Assembly (NCBI GenBank): GCA_003136355.1
Contig: PLED01000060.1
Coordinates: 1 to 32,341 of the forward strand
DNA from: Vulcanimicrobiota bacterium
Lineage (GTDB): Bacteria > Vulcanimicrobiota > Vulcanimicrobiia > Vulcanimicrobiales > Vulcanimicrobiaceae
Length of the DNA stretch: 32,341 bases
Direction of reading: 5' to 3'
Under the pieces are notes generated by a model. That model had not been told where the DNA came from. It did no database searches and worked only from the letters and a program-made list of their open reading frames with translations. Of this stretch, positions 16,118-32,341 are shown in pieces. Position 1 is the first letter of the stretch, and each line of letters begins with the position of its first letter. The position numbers and the translations under genes are program-made.

Positions 16118-16159
16118 CTGTTAATCAGCGGGTCGTTGGTTCGAGTCCAACATCCGGAG
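16118..16159 (+). tRNA. 3' half of a tRNA-Asn (truncated, attachment-site-like)
   Basis: Anticodon loop CTGTTAA (anticodon GTT, Asn) at 16,118-16,124 is followed by a perfect T-arm, GTTGG-TTCGAGT-CCAAC (16,135-16,151), and the acceptor 3' strand ATCCGGA with discriminator G. The 5' half is missing: the bases before the loop cannot pair with TCAGC after it. Such 3' halves are left at one end of elements that integrate into tRNA genes. It is not a functional tRNA. Confidence 0.65.
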
Positions 16160-16164
16160 CCTTT

Positions 16165-16205
16165 GTCATCCTGAGTAGCGCATCTTCGATGCGCGTGTCG
16201 AAGGG
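16165..16205. repeat. REP-like palindromic element, copy 2
   Basis: This has the same frame as copy 1 (GTCATCCTGAG, then CATCTTCGATG, then GTCGAAGGG) and differs at a few positions, including compensating changes on the two sides of the loop (CGCATC/GATGCG here, CACATC/GATGTG in copy 1). That supports selection for the hairpin. Confidence 0.65.
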
Positions 16206-16392
16206 CGAGTCCAACATCCGGAGTCATAAAAAAGCAAAAAAAAGCCTGGTATAGTCCACAGGATCCGCACGCAGCTGAACTGCGGCGACTCGCGCCTGCA
16301 TAAAAGTGGCCTTACCGAGATCAATTGGCTTTCCGTACCTTTGATATGATTCTCGTTGTTGACTCAAACATTGGTGAAGGGCGGGATCGGCC

Positions 16393-19773: not shown

Positions 19774-21894
19774 TTATGGAACGACTGCGATACCGAAGGC
19801 TCCGTTCAAGCACGTGCAAGAGAGGTGGTTGATGTAGGAACCCGGCGCCGGCGGCGTCGAGCCCGTCACCGGCGCGAACTCGTAGACATCGTTCGAGTTT
19901 CCGGCAGCAACGTACAAGTTCTTGGAAGCGTCGACCGAGATCTGTGATGCTTGAATGATCTTGAACCCTAAGGTCGAGCCAAACAGCGTCGTTTGTACAG
20001 TCGTGCTACCCGGTGCGTAGACCGTGATCGTGTTGGTCGTAGACTGTGCGACGTAAACTCTTCCGTCCGAAGCGACCGCGATGCTAACCGGCGCGGCCAT
20101 GCCCGCGGTGATCGTCAAGACGGAGATGGGCGCGGCGTTCCCGCTGCTGCTTGCAGAGTAGACGGTAACGCTGCCGGCACCGCAAACGCTGCCGATGCCG
20201 CCGCCGCAGTTGTTGACCACGTAGATCAGTCCGGTGCTGTCGCGGCCAACCTGATAGGGGGTGCTGAGCTGAGTGAGGTTTCCTTGGATCTGGATCCCCG
20301 ACATGGCGTTTCCGGTCGCCCCTGAAGCGAAGAAGTCGACGGCATTATTTTTGTAATCCGTCAAGTCGAGAGCGCCGAACGAATCGAGGGCGGGCGCCCA
20401 TACGCTCGTGTCCGTGCTCAGATTCGACGACGGCGTCGCGTTGCCGCTTGCGCCGTAGACGAACGAAAACACGCTCGTGAAGCCAGCGGTGCTACTCGGC
20501 ACATAAACACGGCCGTCGACATCCACCGCTATGCCAGTCGGAGCCGTGTTCGACGTGAAGTTGATCGAATTGATCAGCGAGCCGGAACCGCCGCTTGAGC
20601 CTGGCGGCCAGATGTCGATGCTCCAGATTCCTGAGGAGGCGCCTCCGCTCAGCACAAACATCGTGCCCGCTGCCGCGCTCGGGGGAGTGGGCGTTGGTGG
20701 CGGCGTTGGTGTTGGCGGCGGCGATGGCGTCGGGGTGATGAGGGCGAGGGTATACAAGGCCGCTACTGCATAGGGCGTGGTGCCCGCTGGGAAGGAACCC
20801 GCCGGCGTGAGCGCGCCGGTCGTCGAGTTGATCGTGTAAGCGGAAACGGTTTTGTCGCCTGCATTGGTAACGTACAAGAACGTACCGGGGGGATCGATCG
20901 CCGCTCCAACGGGCGAGTTTCCCGCCGGGGCGGGCGTGCCCACCGCCGTGAGCGCACCATTCCCGCCGATGGCGTAAGTGGAAACGGTGTTGGAGCCTGA
21001 ATTGGTAACGTACAAGTGCACGTTCAAGAAGACGGGCTGAACCGCCACTCCAATGGGCGCGGTGCCCGCCGCGAAGGGCGAACCGCTCACCGGCGCGAGC
21101 ACGCCAGTCGTCGAGTTGATAGTGTAGGCGGAAATGGTGTTGTCGCCCTCATTCGTAACGTACAAGAAGTTGCCATCGCGGCTGAGCGCCACTCCGGTCG
21201 GCGAGTTGCCCGCGGCGAAGGGCGAACCGATAACCTGCCCGAGCGCGCCGGGTGCAATACCGCCGGGGAAGTTATTGATGATGTAGGCGGAAACGTTGTT
21301 GGAGCCAAAATTGGTAACGTAGAGGAACTTGCCGGGATCAACCGCCGCTCCATATGGAAAGCTGCCCGCCCCGAAGGGCGAACCGGTCACTGCCGTGAGT
21401 GCGCCGGTCGCCGTGTTGATACTGTAGGCGGAAACGTTGCTGGAGCCGTTATTGGCAACGAACAAGAGGTTGTCGCTGACATCAATCGCCACTCCTAAGG
21501 GCGACGTGCCCGCCGCGAACGAACCCACCGGCGTGAGCGCGCCGGTCGCCGAGTTGACGGCGTAAGCGGAAACGGCGTTGGAGTTCTCATTGGTAACGTA
21601 TACCTGTCCGATTCCTAGGGAATTGAGATAGGCCGCTATTCCATGGGGCCCGGAGCCCGCTGTGAAGGGCGAACCGGTCACCGGTGTGAGCGCGCCAGTC
21701 CCCAAGGTGATACCGTAAGCGGAAGCGTTGCCGGAGTTGGAATTGACGACGTATGCGTACTCGACATACGTCGTCCCGGGGGGAAGCCCAATACCCGAAC
21801 CGGGGCAACCGACTAGTGCGATCGCCGCAAGTCCTAACAAGATTAAAGCGGACCGCTTCATGAGCAAAATGCGAGCTCTCGAAGACCCAATCAT
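19774..21894 (-). CDS. lipoprotein with seven-bladed beta-propeller and second repeat domain
   Basis: A protein of about 706 residues. A lipoprotein signal ends in the lipobox LVGC, then seven repeats of 40-50 residues follow, of the type LYVTNxGSNTVSAYTINSTTGALTP with SPFAAGTxPxGVAV. This is the YncE/lactonase-like beta-propeller. A Thr/Pro linker (TPTPSPPPTPTPPPTPTPP) leads to a second domain with NHL/SMP-30-like repeats (PTGIAVDVDGRVYVPSS, APVSIAVASDGRVYVAQS). It is an exposed binding or scaffold protein rather than a proven enzyme; no lactonase active site was recognised. I start at the ATG at 21894, which has AAGAAGG eight bases upstream and a -10 box at 21,929-21,934. An ATG at 21861 gives a shorter, more typical lipoprotein signal. 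Confidence 0.82.
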   Translation of the reverse strand: MIGSSRARILLMKRSALILLGLAAIALVGCPGSGIGLPPGTTYVEYAYVVNSNSGNASAYGITLGTGALTPVTGSPFTAGSGPHGIAAYLNSLGIGQVYVTNENSNAVSAYAVNSATGALTPVGSFAAGTSPLGVAIDVSDNLLFVANNGSSNVSAYSINTATGALTAVTGSPFGAGSFPYGAAVDPGKFLYVTNFGSNNVSAYIINNFPGGIAPGALGQVIGSPFAAGNSPTGVALSRDGNFLYVTNEGDNTISAYTINSTTGVLAPVSGSPFAAGTAPIGVAVQPVFLNVHLYVTNSGSNTVSTYAIGGNGALTAVGTPAPAGNSPVGAAIDPPGTFLYVTNAGDKTVSAYTINSTTGALTPAGSFPAGTTPYAVAALYTLALITPTPSPPPTPTPPPTPTPPSAAAGTMFVLSGGASSGIWSIDIWPPGSSGGSGSLINSINFTSNTAPTGIAVDVDGRVYVPSSTAGFTSVFSFVYGASGNATPSSNLSTDTSVWAPALDSFGALDLTDYKNNAVDFFASGATGNAMSGIQIQGNLTQLSTPYQVGRDSTGLIYVVNNCGGGIGSVCGAGSVTVYSASSSGNAAPISVLTITAGMAAPVSIAVASDGRVYVAQSTTNTITVYAPGSTTVQTTLFGSTLGFKIIQASQISVDASKNLYVAAGNSNDVYEFAPVTGSTPPAPGSYINHLSCTCLNGAFGIAVVP

Positions 21895-21928
21895 GTGAAA
21901 AGCCTTCTTTCCACCCGATGAACGGTTC

Positions 21929-21934
21929 ATTATA
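21929..21934 (-). promoter_or_regulatory. -10 box TATAAT upstream of the beta-propeller lipoprotein
   Basis: A perfect TATAAT on the minus strand 34 bases before the ATG at 21894. This predicts a leader of about 28 bases that includes the AAGAAGG ribosome binding site. The -35 region is weak. Confidence 0.45.
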
Positions 21935-22119
21935 CACCCTAAGGAAGAAAAAGGCTGAGAAGACGGGCGTTTCACTTGGGGACACTTGCCTCAGAATGTA
22001 CCGGATTTGAAGGCGCACAGACGTGGCAAGTCGTCAGATTGCCGGGCTTTCTATTTGCAGCCGACGCTGCATGGTGCGACCTTAACCTCATTCCGAACGC
22101 ATTTTGACCGACCCGCTGA

Positions 22120-28621: not shown

Positions 28622-28642
28622 CGCTCCACATGTGTTAAATGG

Positions 28643-28671
28643 AAGAGCGGCCGTTTCCGGCCGCTCTTTTA
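28643..28671 (-). terminator. hairpin terminator after the histone-like gene
   Basis: AAGAGCGGCCG (28,643-28,653) and CGGCCGCTCTT (28,658-28,668) form a perfect 11-base stem with a TTTC loop. It lies 17 bases beyond the end of the minus-strand histone-like gene. The T-run is better on the plus strand, so it may act in both directions. Confidence 0.65.
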
Positions 28672-28687
28672 TCGCTTTGGGGAGCGC

Positions 28688-29026
28688 TTAACGTTTCTTG
28701 CCTCGTGCGCTCTTTCTGCGTCCGGCTTTCTTGCGTCCGCCCGTTTTCCGAGCGGCCTTTTTGCGTCCGCCCGTCTTGCGTCCGGCTTTCTTGCGTCCGC
28801 CTTTTTTGCGTCCGACGGCCTTCTTGCGACCACCGGCCTTCTTGCGTCCGCCGGTCTTTTTACGGCCGCCGGCCTTTTTGCGCCCGGCTTTTTTGCGTCC
28901 CGCACTCTTGCGCGCGGTCTTACGTCCGCCGGCCTTTTTGCGCCGGCCGCCGCGGCGTTTGCCGAGTCCTGAAGACTCGGATTCTTCGCCCATCGTGCCG
29001 CCGTTTTGCATCAGATCGGAATCCAT
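28688..29026 (-). CDS. histone H1/Hc1-like Lys-Arg-Gly repeat protein
   Basis: A 112-residue protein whose last ~90 residues are nearly all Lys, Arg, Gly and Ala in short repeats (GRKKAGGRKK, GRKTGGRKKA). The N-terminus is acidic (MDSDLMQNGG, EESESSG). Such tails bind DNA or RNA without sequence preference, as in H1-like and chlamydial Hc-type proteins. A strong GGGAGGA lies before the ATG at 29026. It is divergent from topA, which would pair two chromosome-topology genes on a shared ~130-base control region. Repeat number is likely to vary by slippage. Confidence 0.82.
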   Translation of the reverse strand: MDSDLMQNGGTMGEESESSGLGKRRGGRRKKAGGRKTARKSAGRKKAGRKKAGGRKKTGGRKKAGGRKKAVGRKKGGRKKAGRKTGGRKKAARKTGGRKKAGRRKSARGKKR

Positions 29027-29121
29027 TATTCCTCCCTATTGTACTGGCGCTTTTTTATGCGCTCGTGCTGCATCATAGAATGTTTTTTTGCAAAAAGCAA
29101 ATGCTCGAAAACGGCAAGGAT

Positions 29122-29151
29122 TTGGCGCGAGCTTGACCGGGGCGGTATACT
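29122..29151 (+). promoter_or_regulatory. topA promoter, predicted leaderless transcript
   Basis: TTGGCG (29,122-29,127) and TATACT (29,146-29,151) are 18 bases apart. The expected transcription start falls at about 29,158-29,159, the first base of the GTG start of topA, so the message would have little or no leader. No normal Shine-Dalgarno precedes the GTG. Confidence 0.5.
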
Positions 29152-29158
29152 AAGGCCC

Positions 29159-31648
29159 GTGAAAAAGCCCTTGATTATCGTGGAGTCGCCGACCAAGGCG
29201 CGTACGATCAAGAAGTTTCTTCCCGCCCGCTATGTCGTCAAGGCTTCGGTCGGGCACGTCCGCGATTTGCCCAAAAGCACCCTGGGAGTGGACGTCGAGC
29301 ACGGATTCACGCCCAAGTATCTGACGATCAAGGGCAAGGGCGACGTGATCAAGGAGCTCAAGTCAGCGGTCAAAGCCGCGAGCGAGGTCTATCTCGCCAC
29401 CGACCCCGACCGTGAAGGCGAGGCGATCGCCTGGCATTTGGCCGAGCTGCTCAAACTCGATCATCCCAAGCGCATCGAACTCCATGAAATAACGAAGGAC
29501 GCCGCAATGGCGGCCATCCGGAATCCGCATCCGATCGACATCGATCGTGTGAACGCGCAACAGGCGCGGCGCATTCTCGACCGCCTGGTCGGATACAAAA
29601 TTTCTCCGCTGCTCTGGGCCAAAGTGCGCGGCGGACTCTCCGCCGGACGCGTGCAGTCCGTAGCCGTCCGGCTGATCGTCGATCGCGAGCGCGAGATTCT
29701 CGCGTTTATACCGCGCGAGTATTGGTCGGTCGCCGCACTGCTCTCCGGCCGCAGCGAACCCGAGTTCGTCTTCCCAGCCGAGCTCTTTGCGCGAGACGGC
29801 GAGAAGATCGACGTTGAAACGGAAGCCGAGGCGAACCGCGTCGTTGCCGACCTCGAGGGCGCGGAGTACCGCGTCGCTTCCATCAAACAGCGCGAAGGCC
29901 GCCGCAATTCGCCGGCGCCGTTCACGACTTCAACGCTGCAGCAAGAAGCATCCCGGAAATTGCGCCTGCGCGTGCGGCGTACGATGCAGATCGCGCAAGG
30001 CCTCTACGAAGGCGTCGACCTCGGAGCCGAAGGCACCGTCGGTCTGATCACGTACATGCGAACCGATTCCACGCGCATCTCGGACCAAGCTCGCGAGGCG
30101 GCCAAAGAGTTCATCACCGGCACGTTCGGCGAAGCGTATTACGGCGGCCGCGAGCATCGCGTGCGCGAAGGCGCGCAGGATGCTCACGAAGCGATCCGTC
30201 CGACGCTCGCCCATCACACGCCCGAAAAAGTTGCACCATTTCTCAAGCGGGACGATCTGCGGCTCTACACGCTGATCTGGGAACGCTTCATCGCCTCGCA
30301 GATGTCCGCCGCGGTCTTCGATCAAACGTCGGTCGATATTTCTGCCAAAGCCTACACGTTCCGCGCTTCGGGCAGCGTTATGAAATTCGCCGGCTACACC
30401 AAGCTGTATGAAGAGAGCCGCGATGAAGCGGCCGTGACGGCCGATACGAAACGGTTGCCGAAGTTGGAGCAAGACGAAACGCTCGCCTTCCGCGGTCTCG
30501 ATCCCAAACAGCATTTCACCGAGCCGCCGCCGCGCTTTACAGAAGCGTCGCTCGTCAAGTCGCTCGAGGACAACGGCATCGGGCGTCCGTCGACCTACGC
30601 GGCGGTGATCGAGACGATCCAGGCCCGGTCGTACGTGTGGCGCAAGGGAACGGCGCTGGTTCCCGCGTGGACTGCGTTCGCGGTCACGAACCTCCTGGAG
30701 CGTCACTTCGGTCATCTCGTCGACTACTCGTTCACGGCGACGATGGAGGAGGCGCTCGACGCGATCGCCCGCGGGGAGGGCGAGGCCGAGAAATGGCTCC
30801 ACGCCTTCTGGTTCGGGAACGGCCAGGTCGGGCTCAAGGATCTCGTCAACGAGGAGCACCTCGCCACGATCGACCCGGCCGAGGTCAACGCCGTCCCGAT
30901 CGGCCAGGACGCCGAAGGGCGCGAGATCATCGTGCGGGTCTGGAACAACGGTGCCAGCGTCGTGCGCGGCGAGGAGCGGGCCCCGGTCCCCGTCGACCTG
31001 GCCCCCGACGAGCTCACCATCGAGAAGGCCAACGAGCTGCTCGAGAAGGGCGCGGCCGGTCCCCGCGTCCTCGGCGTCGACCCCGAGCAGCAGCTTCCCG
31101 TCCTCGCCCTGACCGGCCGGTACGGGCCGTTCGTGCAGCTCGGCGAGATGGAGGACGGCTCCAAGGAGAAACCCAAGCGCGCGTCGCTGTTCTCGAGCAT
31201 GGAGGTCGACACCGTCACCCTCGACGACGCGCTGGCGCTGCTGTCGCTGCCCCGCACCGTCGGTGTCACCCCGGAGGGAGTCGAGGTCACCGCCCAGAAC
31301 GGGCGCTACGGCCCGTACCTCAAGAAGGGGACGGACAGCCGCAGCCTCGAGACCGAGGGTGAGCTGTTCACGATCACCCTGGACGGCGCCGAGGTGCTGT
31401 TCGCGCAGCCCAAACGGCGGGGCCGGCGCACCAAGCCGCCGATCGCCGAGCTCGGCCCGCACCCCGAGAGCGGCGCCCAGGTGCGCGTCCTCGACGGCCG
31501 CTACGGCCCGTACGTCACCGACGGCGAGACGAACGCGAGCCTCCGCGCCGATGACCAGGTCGAGTCGCTGACGCTCGAGCGGGCCGTCGAGCTGATGGCC
31601 GCCCGGCGCGAGCGCGGGCCCACAAAACCCCGCCGCAAGCGCTCTTAG
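29159..31648 (+). CDS. topA: DNA topoisomerase I, with a change of lineage style inside the gene
   Basis: An 829-residue type IA topoisomerase that relaxes negative supercoils. The Toprim domain starts KKPLIIVESPTKARTIKKFL and carries TDPDREGEAIAWH; the catalytic Tyr299 is in GLITYMRTDSTRI. LSAGRVQSVAVRL and NGIGRPSTYAAVIETI are further core motifs. The C-terminal third has GRYGPYxxxG repeats and no zinc fingers, the actinobacterial type. From 29,159 to ~30,545 Glu is often GAA (at least 15) and Leu sometimes TTG (at least five). From ~30,650 to the stop there is one GAA and no TTG, and the protein reads as actinobacterial (VWRKGTALVPAWTAFAV). The start is the GTG at 29159; the frame upstream to 29006 runs into the control region and is not used. 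Confidence 0.9.
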   Translation: MKKPLIIVESPTKARTIKKFLPARYVVKASVGHVRDLPKSTLGVDVEHGFTPKYLTIKGKGDVIKELKSAVKAASEVYLATDPDREGEAIAWHLAELLKLDHPKRIELHEITKDAAMAAIRNPHPIDIDRVNAQQARRILDRLVGYKISPLLWAKVRGGLSAGRVQSVAVRLIVDREREILAFIPREYWSVAALLSGRSEPEFVFPAELFARDGEKIDVETEAEANRVVADLEGAEYRVASIKQREGRRNSPAPFTTSTLQQEASRKLRLRVRRTMQIAQGLYEGVDLGAEGTVGLITYMRTDSTRISDQAREAAKEFITGTFGEAYYGGREHRVREGAQDAHEAIRPTLAHHTPEKVAPFLKRDDLRLYTLIWERFIASQMSAAVFDQTSVDISAKAYTFRASGSVMKFAGYTKLYEESRDEAAVTADTKRLPKLEQDETLAFRGLDPKQHFTEPPPRFTEASLVKSLEDNGIGRPSTYAAVIETIQARSYVWRKGTALVPAWTAFAVTNLLERHFGHLVDYSFTATMEEALDAIARGEGEAEKWLHAFWFGNGQVGLKDLVNEEHLATIDPAEVNAVPIGQDAEGREIIVRVWNNGASVVRGEERAPVPVDLAPDELTIEKANELLEKGAAGPRVLGVDPEQQLPVLALTGRYGPFVQLGEMEDGSKEKPKRASLFSSMEVDTVTLDDALALLSLPRTVGVTPEGVEVTAQNGRYGPYLKKGTDSRSLETEGELFTITLDGAEVLFAQPKRRGRRTKPPIAELGPHPESGAQVRVLDGRYGPYVTDGETNASLRADDQVESLTLERAVELMAARRERGPTKPRRKRS

Positions 31649-31907
31649 ACAAAACGCCTTACGGTTTCTTCACACTTCGCCACCCAGTTCCACTGGTTCT
31701 CTCGTCGAAGATCCGCGATACTTCAACCTGAGGAAGCCGGGTCGGCCCCTCGTCCGCTACCGTGGGAGCGTCATTCCGAGTGCGCGACGGCGGCCGCTCG
31801 GGCGGGAAAGGGCAAAAGCGGATCGCAAGTTTCAACGAATCCTCTCGTTTTGCTGGAAATCAGAGGACAAATACCGTACGGTGCGAAGCGGCGTGGAGCG
31901 TAGGGCG

Positions 31908-32341
31908 ATGAAAGGCGTGGGAGAACCGGTGACGCAGAACCAATTGACTGAGTTGCTCGAGAGCGAGCCCGCAAAGGCCATGCTCGAAACGGGCGAGGAG
32001 CGCGGCTGGATCGAACCTGCCGAGCTGGAGGCGTTCGCGCTCGAGCATGAGCTCGTCGACGCCGATGTCGAGGACCTCACCCGCGAGCTCGAACGGATCG
32101 GGCTCGAGGTGCGCGAGGCGAAGCCCGAGGAGAAGGCGTCCAAGGCCGAGGAGGTCGTCTACGAAGCCGACCAGCCCTCCGGCGCCGGCGATTCGTTGCA
32201 GCTCTTCCTTGCCGACGTCGGTCGCCACAAGCTGCTGACCGCGGCGCAGGAGGTCATCCTCGCGAAGAAGATCGAGCGCGGCGACCTGGTCGCGAAGCGC
32301 CAGATGATCGAGTCGAACCTGCGGCTCGTCGTCTCGATCGC
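31908..32341 (+). CDS. primary sigma factor, N-terminal part (cut by window end)
   Basis: The frame runs from the ATG at 31908 to the window edge, 144 codons. Residues about 10-75 form a region 1.1-like helical part (LTELLESEPAKAMLETGEER). Region 1.2 and the start of region 2 follow: SLQLFLADVGRHKLLTAAQE, then AKKIERGDL and RQMIESNLRLVVSIA, the signature of group 1/2 sigma-70 factors. It would direct RNA polymerase to housekeeping promoters. Codon use (GAG, CTC, GTC, AAG) and wording match actinobacterial, Thermoleophilia-like sigma factors and the foreign-looking half of topA, not the rest of the window. GTG codons at 31,917 and 31,929 are other possible starts. Confidence 0.82.
   Translation, partial: MKGVGEPVTQNQLTELLESEPAKAMLETGEERGWIEPAELEAFALEHELVDADVEDLTRELERIGLEVREAKPEEKASKAEEVVYEADQPSGAGDSLQLFLADVGRHKLLTAAQEVILAKKIERGDLVAKRQMIESNLRLVVSI

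Follow-up and report, generated by a model that had tools for sequence, protein, structure and literature searches.

The topA gene at the end of a metagenomic contig begins as the topoisomerase gene of its host and ends as that of an actinomycete, and the sequences on either side of the join point with high confidence to an inter-species assembly chimera at the contig end. The window, meaning the whole stretch of DNA that was analyzed, is the entire contig C90 (32,341 bases), which belongs to a metagenome-assembled genome of 111 contigs. This bin is reported at 97% completeness and 1.3% contamination. Foreign DNA occupies the final 1,743 bases of C90 and extends to the contig terminus. The relevant features are as follows.

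29159..30598, + strand: host part of topA, residues 1-480, with a GTG start, the Toprim domain and most of Topoisom_bac.
30574..30598, + strand: junction 1, CGGCATCGGGCGTCCGTCGACCTAC, part of the GIGRPSTY coding stretch; 25 bases in which host and foreign sequence are indistinguishable.
30599..31513, + strand: foreign segment 1, actinobacterial topA, with the end of Topoisom_bac and Toprim_C_rpt repeats, nearest to L031.
31504..31546, + strand: probable junction 2, motif GRYGPYVTDGETNASL; the best change point is residue 786 (base 31,514).
31514..31648, + strand: foreign segment 2, a topA 3′ end resembling the topA of an order with adjacent topA and rpoD.
31908..32341, + strand: foreign segment 2, start of rpoD, a housekeeping sigma factor gene (Sigma70_r1_2) severed by the contig end.

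The topA frame runs from 29,159 to 31,648, encodes 829 residues and is unbroken through the switch, as the original prediction had stated. The fused protein matches TIGR01051 with 746 bits (cut-off 456) and so qualifies as a bacterial type I DNA topoisomerase, which means that annotation alone would not reveal the fusion. Codon counts agree with the earlier observation that GAA, TTG and AAA are used freely upstream, while only one GAA and no TTG occur downstream. Specifically, positions 29,159-30,544 hold 19 GAA, 6 TTG and 14 AAA codons at a GC3 of 0.749, with GAA making up 19 of 40 glutamate codons. Positions 30,653-31,645 hold one GAA versus 34 GAG (1 of 35 glutamate codons), no TTG and four AAA, at a GC3 of 0.940. 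When pooled, 15 other open reading frames of the window have a GC3 of 0.685, and half of their glutamate codons are GAA; the upstream part of topA is therefore host-like in style, and its downstream part foreign.

The lineage switch in the topA sequence is real, and the two parts of the gene fall in different phyla. A whole-protein search of 60 genomes, comprising the window's own and 59 relatives, gave matches in 56 of them. Congener alignments in this search, at 82-91%, cover no more than residues 1 to about 551, and none of the 59 relatives matches TopA past residue 599. Over residues 1-463 the protein shares 98.2% amino acid identity with the congener locus L002 (the same place as L112), 87.6-94.6% with four further congeners and about 40-46% with Actinomycetota. 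The N-terminus had been described as Firmicutes-like; it is instead the TopA of the host genus itself. For residues 499-829 the best relatives are the Actinomycetota metagenome-assembled genomes L031 (72% amino acid identity) and L032 (64%), and the N-terminal parts of these two proteins are only 43-44% identical to that of the window. The downstream part does have the zinc-finger-free actinobacterial form that was proposed for it, with Pfam Toprim_C_rpt replacing the Zn_ribbon_Top1 of the host.

The change between these two ancestries is abrupt. In bins of 40 residues, congener identity drops from 0.96 at residues 441-480 to 0.40 at residues 481-520, and over the range of congeners, values of 0.88-0.97 give way at residue 481 to values of at most 0.40. 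In the same bins, identity to L031 climbs to 0.72 at the switch and then stays at 0.68-0.82 up to residue 800. The separate phylogenies suggested for the two halves were built, and the halves place in different phyla. In the tree of residues 1-460 the window lies within the congeners (SH-aLRT 99-100), and in the tree of residues 481-575 it joins L031 (SH-aLRT 96) inside the actinobacterial clade (SH-aLRT 100).

Two genomes of the host genus stood out in these comparisons for other reasons. G005, which is 95% complete, has no topA match at all, perhaps because its assembly, too, has a gap at this gene. The congener bin G002 (7% contamination) carries two different host-type topA copies, at C18:10222-11862 and C3:314836-316488, and probably mixes two species.

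The site of the first switch was mapped base by base with diagnostic positions that distinguish five congeneric loci from ten Actinomycetota loci. Host-type diagnostic bases end at 30,572-30,573, and from 30,599 a first series of actinobacterial type sets in. The 38 bases from 30,561 to 30,598 are matched exactly in G022, a genome of the host family. Together, these observations confine the switch to 25 bases coding for GIGRPSTY. The GIGRPSTYA motif named in the original prediction is thus the correct site, and the interval proposed there (30545-30660) narrows to 30,574-30,598.

A shared bridging word at this junction is plausible. The 25-base word itself occurs in 2 of 148 other genomes of the host phylum and in none of 396 Actinomycetota genomes, and the longest word at the junction in common with any compared actinobacterial locus is 15 bases. 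The motif had been singled out as the stretch most likely to be shared between distant genomes, which the counts do not support. Among 928 host-actinobacterial gene pairs, 21-base words common to both lineages are found at residues 460-480 in 21 pairs, behind residues 300-320 (79 pairs) and residues 80-100 (51 pairs), so that the motif ranks third.

What should follow topA in the host is evident from its congeners. In the congeneric locus L112, a topA gene with zinc fingers (Zn_ribbon_Top1) is followed by three genes that we take, from their sequences, to be trmFO, hslV and hslU, and in each of the five congeneric loci that were read, DNA of the trmFO side comes after topA. Another contig of the same genome, C100, opens at base 1 within trmFO, at codon 50, and its sequence is collinear with what lies directly downstream of topA in all five of these loci. 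By L112 coordinates, the gap between the switch and C100 is about 0.86 kb, mostly topA 3′ end. A host-type topA C-terminus was not found elsewhere in the genome, and a search for an end overlap between C90 and C100 found none. Given the start of C100 at trmFO codon 50, its synteny with the congeners and the missing topA 3′ end, C100 is likely the expected neighbor of C90, with the actinobacterial tail occupying the place of the missing piece.

Several other features of the window and its relatives were noted. A divergent gene at 28639-29136, upstream of topA, is repetitive, rich in lysine and arginine, and histone-H1-like. Contigs of several relatives begin just before topA (for example G019:C128:417, G007:C16:176 and G038:C71:239), and this histone-H1-like repeat may therefore itself break assemblies. 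At 16118-16225 there is a piece resembling a tRNA 3′ end, GGTTCGAGTCCAACATCCGGAGCC, with another, incomplete copy, GAGTCCAACATCCGGAGTC, after it; ARAGORN predicts no tRNA in the window, and the two copies may be scars left at the attachment site of an integrated element. At 16163-16212 lies a palindrome of about 45 bases, CTTTGTCATCCTGAGTAGCGCATCTTCGATGCGCGTGTCGAAGGGCGA, which recurs at dozens of sites in this genome and in congeners and is a dispersed repeat family. The reverse strand at 19774-21975 encodes a large, secreted-looking beta-propeller protein with Lactonase and NHL repeats, in repetitive DNA that has no GAA codons.

The foreign tail itself probably has two parts, namely an L031-like topA segment followed by the topA end and rpoD start of another actinomycete order. 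The rpoD fragment comprises the first 144 codons and encodes a product with 84% amino acid identity to L159 (residues 2-144) and 88% to L175 (residues 61-144). In many genomes of the matching actinomycete order, which is presumably Thermoleophilia-like, topA adjoins rpoD, and this is the native gene order there. A literature search for topA-rpoD in Thermoleophilia returned nothing relevant. The genomes behind L031 and L032 contain no close match to the rpoD of the tail, and a search of the window's own genome for the rest of rpoD or a second piece of the foreign topA turned up nothing but the sigma factor of the host itself, on C93. Within TopA, residues 741-775 show 69-71% identity to L031 and L032 and 37-54% to others, but residues 796-829 show 35% to L031, 29% to L032 and up to 71% (L160) to the order with adjacent topA and rpoD. 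In a change-point test the best break is residue 786 (base 31,514), with a statistic of 2.40 and a site-shuffle p of 0.0005, and the six other rows that served as controls showed no significant change point. The probable second switch again coincides with a conserved motif, GRYGPYVTDGETNASL, in which a word of 43 bases (31,504-31,546) is identical in the distant Actinomycetota L161 and L106, the latter an Actinomadura locus.

A single donor is a less likely source of the tail. In that case all of 30,599-32,341 would derive from a single, unsampled actinomycete with an L031-like topA that nevertheless has the ending, and the neighboring rpoD, of the other order. Such a donor would fit with the native adjacency of topA and rpoD in that order and with the variable type of TopA found beside rpoD there (L159, L165 and L171 give weak TopA matches only), but not with the abrupt shift of affinity that the test places at residue 786, and that is not significant in the six control rows, or with the absence of a close rpoD match from the L031 and L032 genomes. 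The verdict on the host junction is the same for one donor or two. In L159, L165, L171, L176 and L178 the place beside rpoD is kept, matches to the TopA core are weak and none extends to the repeat-type C-terminus, which suggests that topA has been replaced in place in these loci.

It might be supposed that composition and domain type simply vary along TopA and that the switch is only apparent, given that bacterial TopA C-termini differ widely. However, congeners are 82-91% identical over the matched stretch and wholly divergent beyond it, the fully read congener retains a zinc-finger C-terminus, and the two parts of the gene place in different phyla. Natural variation of TopA was rejected on the identity profile, the 60-genome search and the separate trees, and its probability is negligible. 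The alternative offered in the original prediction is homologous recombination, in which the host would have gained an actinomycete topA 3′ half and rpoD start within GIGRPSTYA, yielding a mosaic topoisomerase. The fusion is indeed in frame and at a conserved motif, and both domain architectures occur in functional type IA topoisomerases. However, the foreign DNA is confined to the contig end, shows no codon amelioration and is absent from all congeners and other relatives examined. Moreover, recombination must insert a truncated rpoD between topA and trmFO, needs a further probable join, of one actinomycete lineage to another, and leaves the first part of trmFO, as far as codon 50, either interrupted or not assembled. 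Host sequence was not found on both flanks, since the contig terminates within the foreign tract, and the tract was neither present in sister genomes nor seen independently. We consider recombination very improbable. There is a correspondingly slight chance that the gene encodes a genuine inter-phylum topoisomerase I, with the Toprim domain and catalytic core of the host and an actinobacterial repeat-type C-terminus, in an uncultured bacterium; if true, an important enzyme would here combine parts from two phyla.

Several observations argue for an assembly chimera, which was the other reading of the original prediction. The two sides of the join differ in ancestry, both in the identity profile and in the separate trees. 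The likely true continuation of one side lies elsewhere in the assembly, on C100 from trmFO codon 50, and the fusion is absent from independent genomes of the lineage (56 of 60 have a topA match, none past residue 599 except the window's own). An assembly chimera is strongly favored over recombination because the foreign DNA continues to the very end of the contig while the host continuation begins another. It is also favored because a truncated rpoD would be rare in a recombinant, a second inter-lineage join within 1 kb (the probable second jump comes 0.9 kb on) would be rarer, and no relative examined shares the foreign tract. Counted against a chimera are the intact fused frame, the low bin contamination (1.3%) and the occurrence of the junction-1 word in 0 of 396 Actinomycetota genomes, the true foreign parent being outside the genome collection.

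De Bruijn graph assembly is known to fail where a sequence conserved among species acts as a chimeric node, which gives rise to chimeric contigs (PMC8171044). As in the chimeric nodes described for the MetaVelvet family (PMC8171044), a conserved stretch here appears to link the incoming path of one species with the outgoing path of another, at a contig end and with the true continuation elsewhere. Unlike that case, the assembly probably jumped twice here, inside 1 kb of a single gene and once across phyla, and the bridging word at junction 1 is only putative. A search of the available papers for misassembled inter-species contigs found none. Residues 1-480 of the window protein are the zinc-ribbon TopA of the host genus, as in L112 and other congeners, although the congener gene goes on to Zn_ribbon_Top1 fingers and trmFO whereas that of the window goes on to Toprim_C_rpt repeats. 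Residues 481-829 share sequence and the Toprim_C_rpt repeat architecture with the actinobacterial zinc-finger-free TopA, although the window has only the 3′ part of such a gene, without its own N-terminal part.

We infer that the join was made in assembly (or library preparation) rather than in the cell, and that shared words were its cause. A short-read metagenome assembler, walking along the host topA, probably reached GIGRPSTYA, left the host path and would then have entered an actinomycete topA. A second crossing, probably at GRYGPYVTDGETNASL, would have led into the topA-rpoD block of another actinomycete, where the contig stopped. The true host continuation, consisting of about 0.86 kb of topA 3′ end and the trmFO start, would have been lost, with the host resuming at base 1 of C100. 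A chimeric DNA molecule formed during library preparation would give an identical picture and identical advice.

That advice is to cut C90 at about 30,573, to regard C100 as the likely adjoining contig, and to draw no biology from the hybrid gene, which is almost certainly absent from the organism itself. The fused reading frame may pass ordinary quality checks, with a topA score above the cut-off in a bin that is 97% complete and 1.3% contaminated, and such genomes could mislead readings of domain swaps or horizontal transfer. The value of this case is low as biology, and it is useful for quality control.
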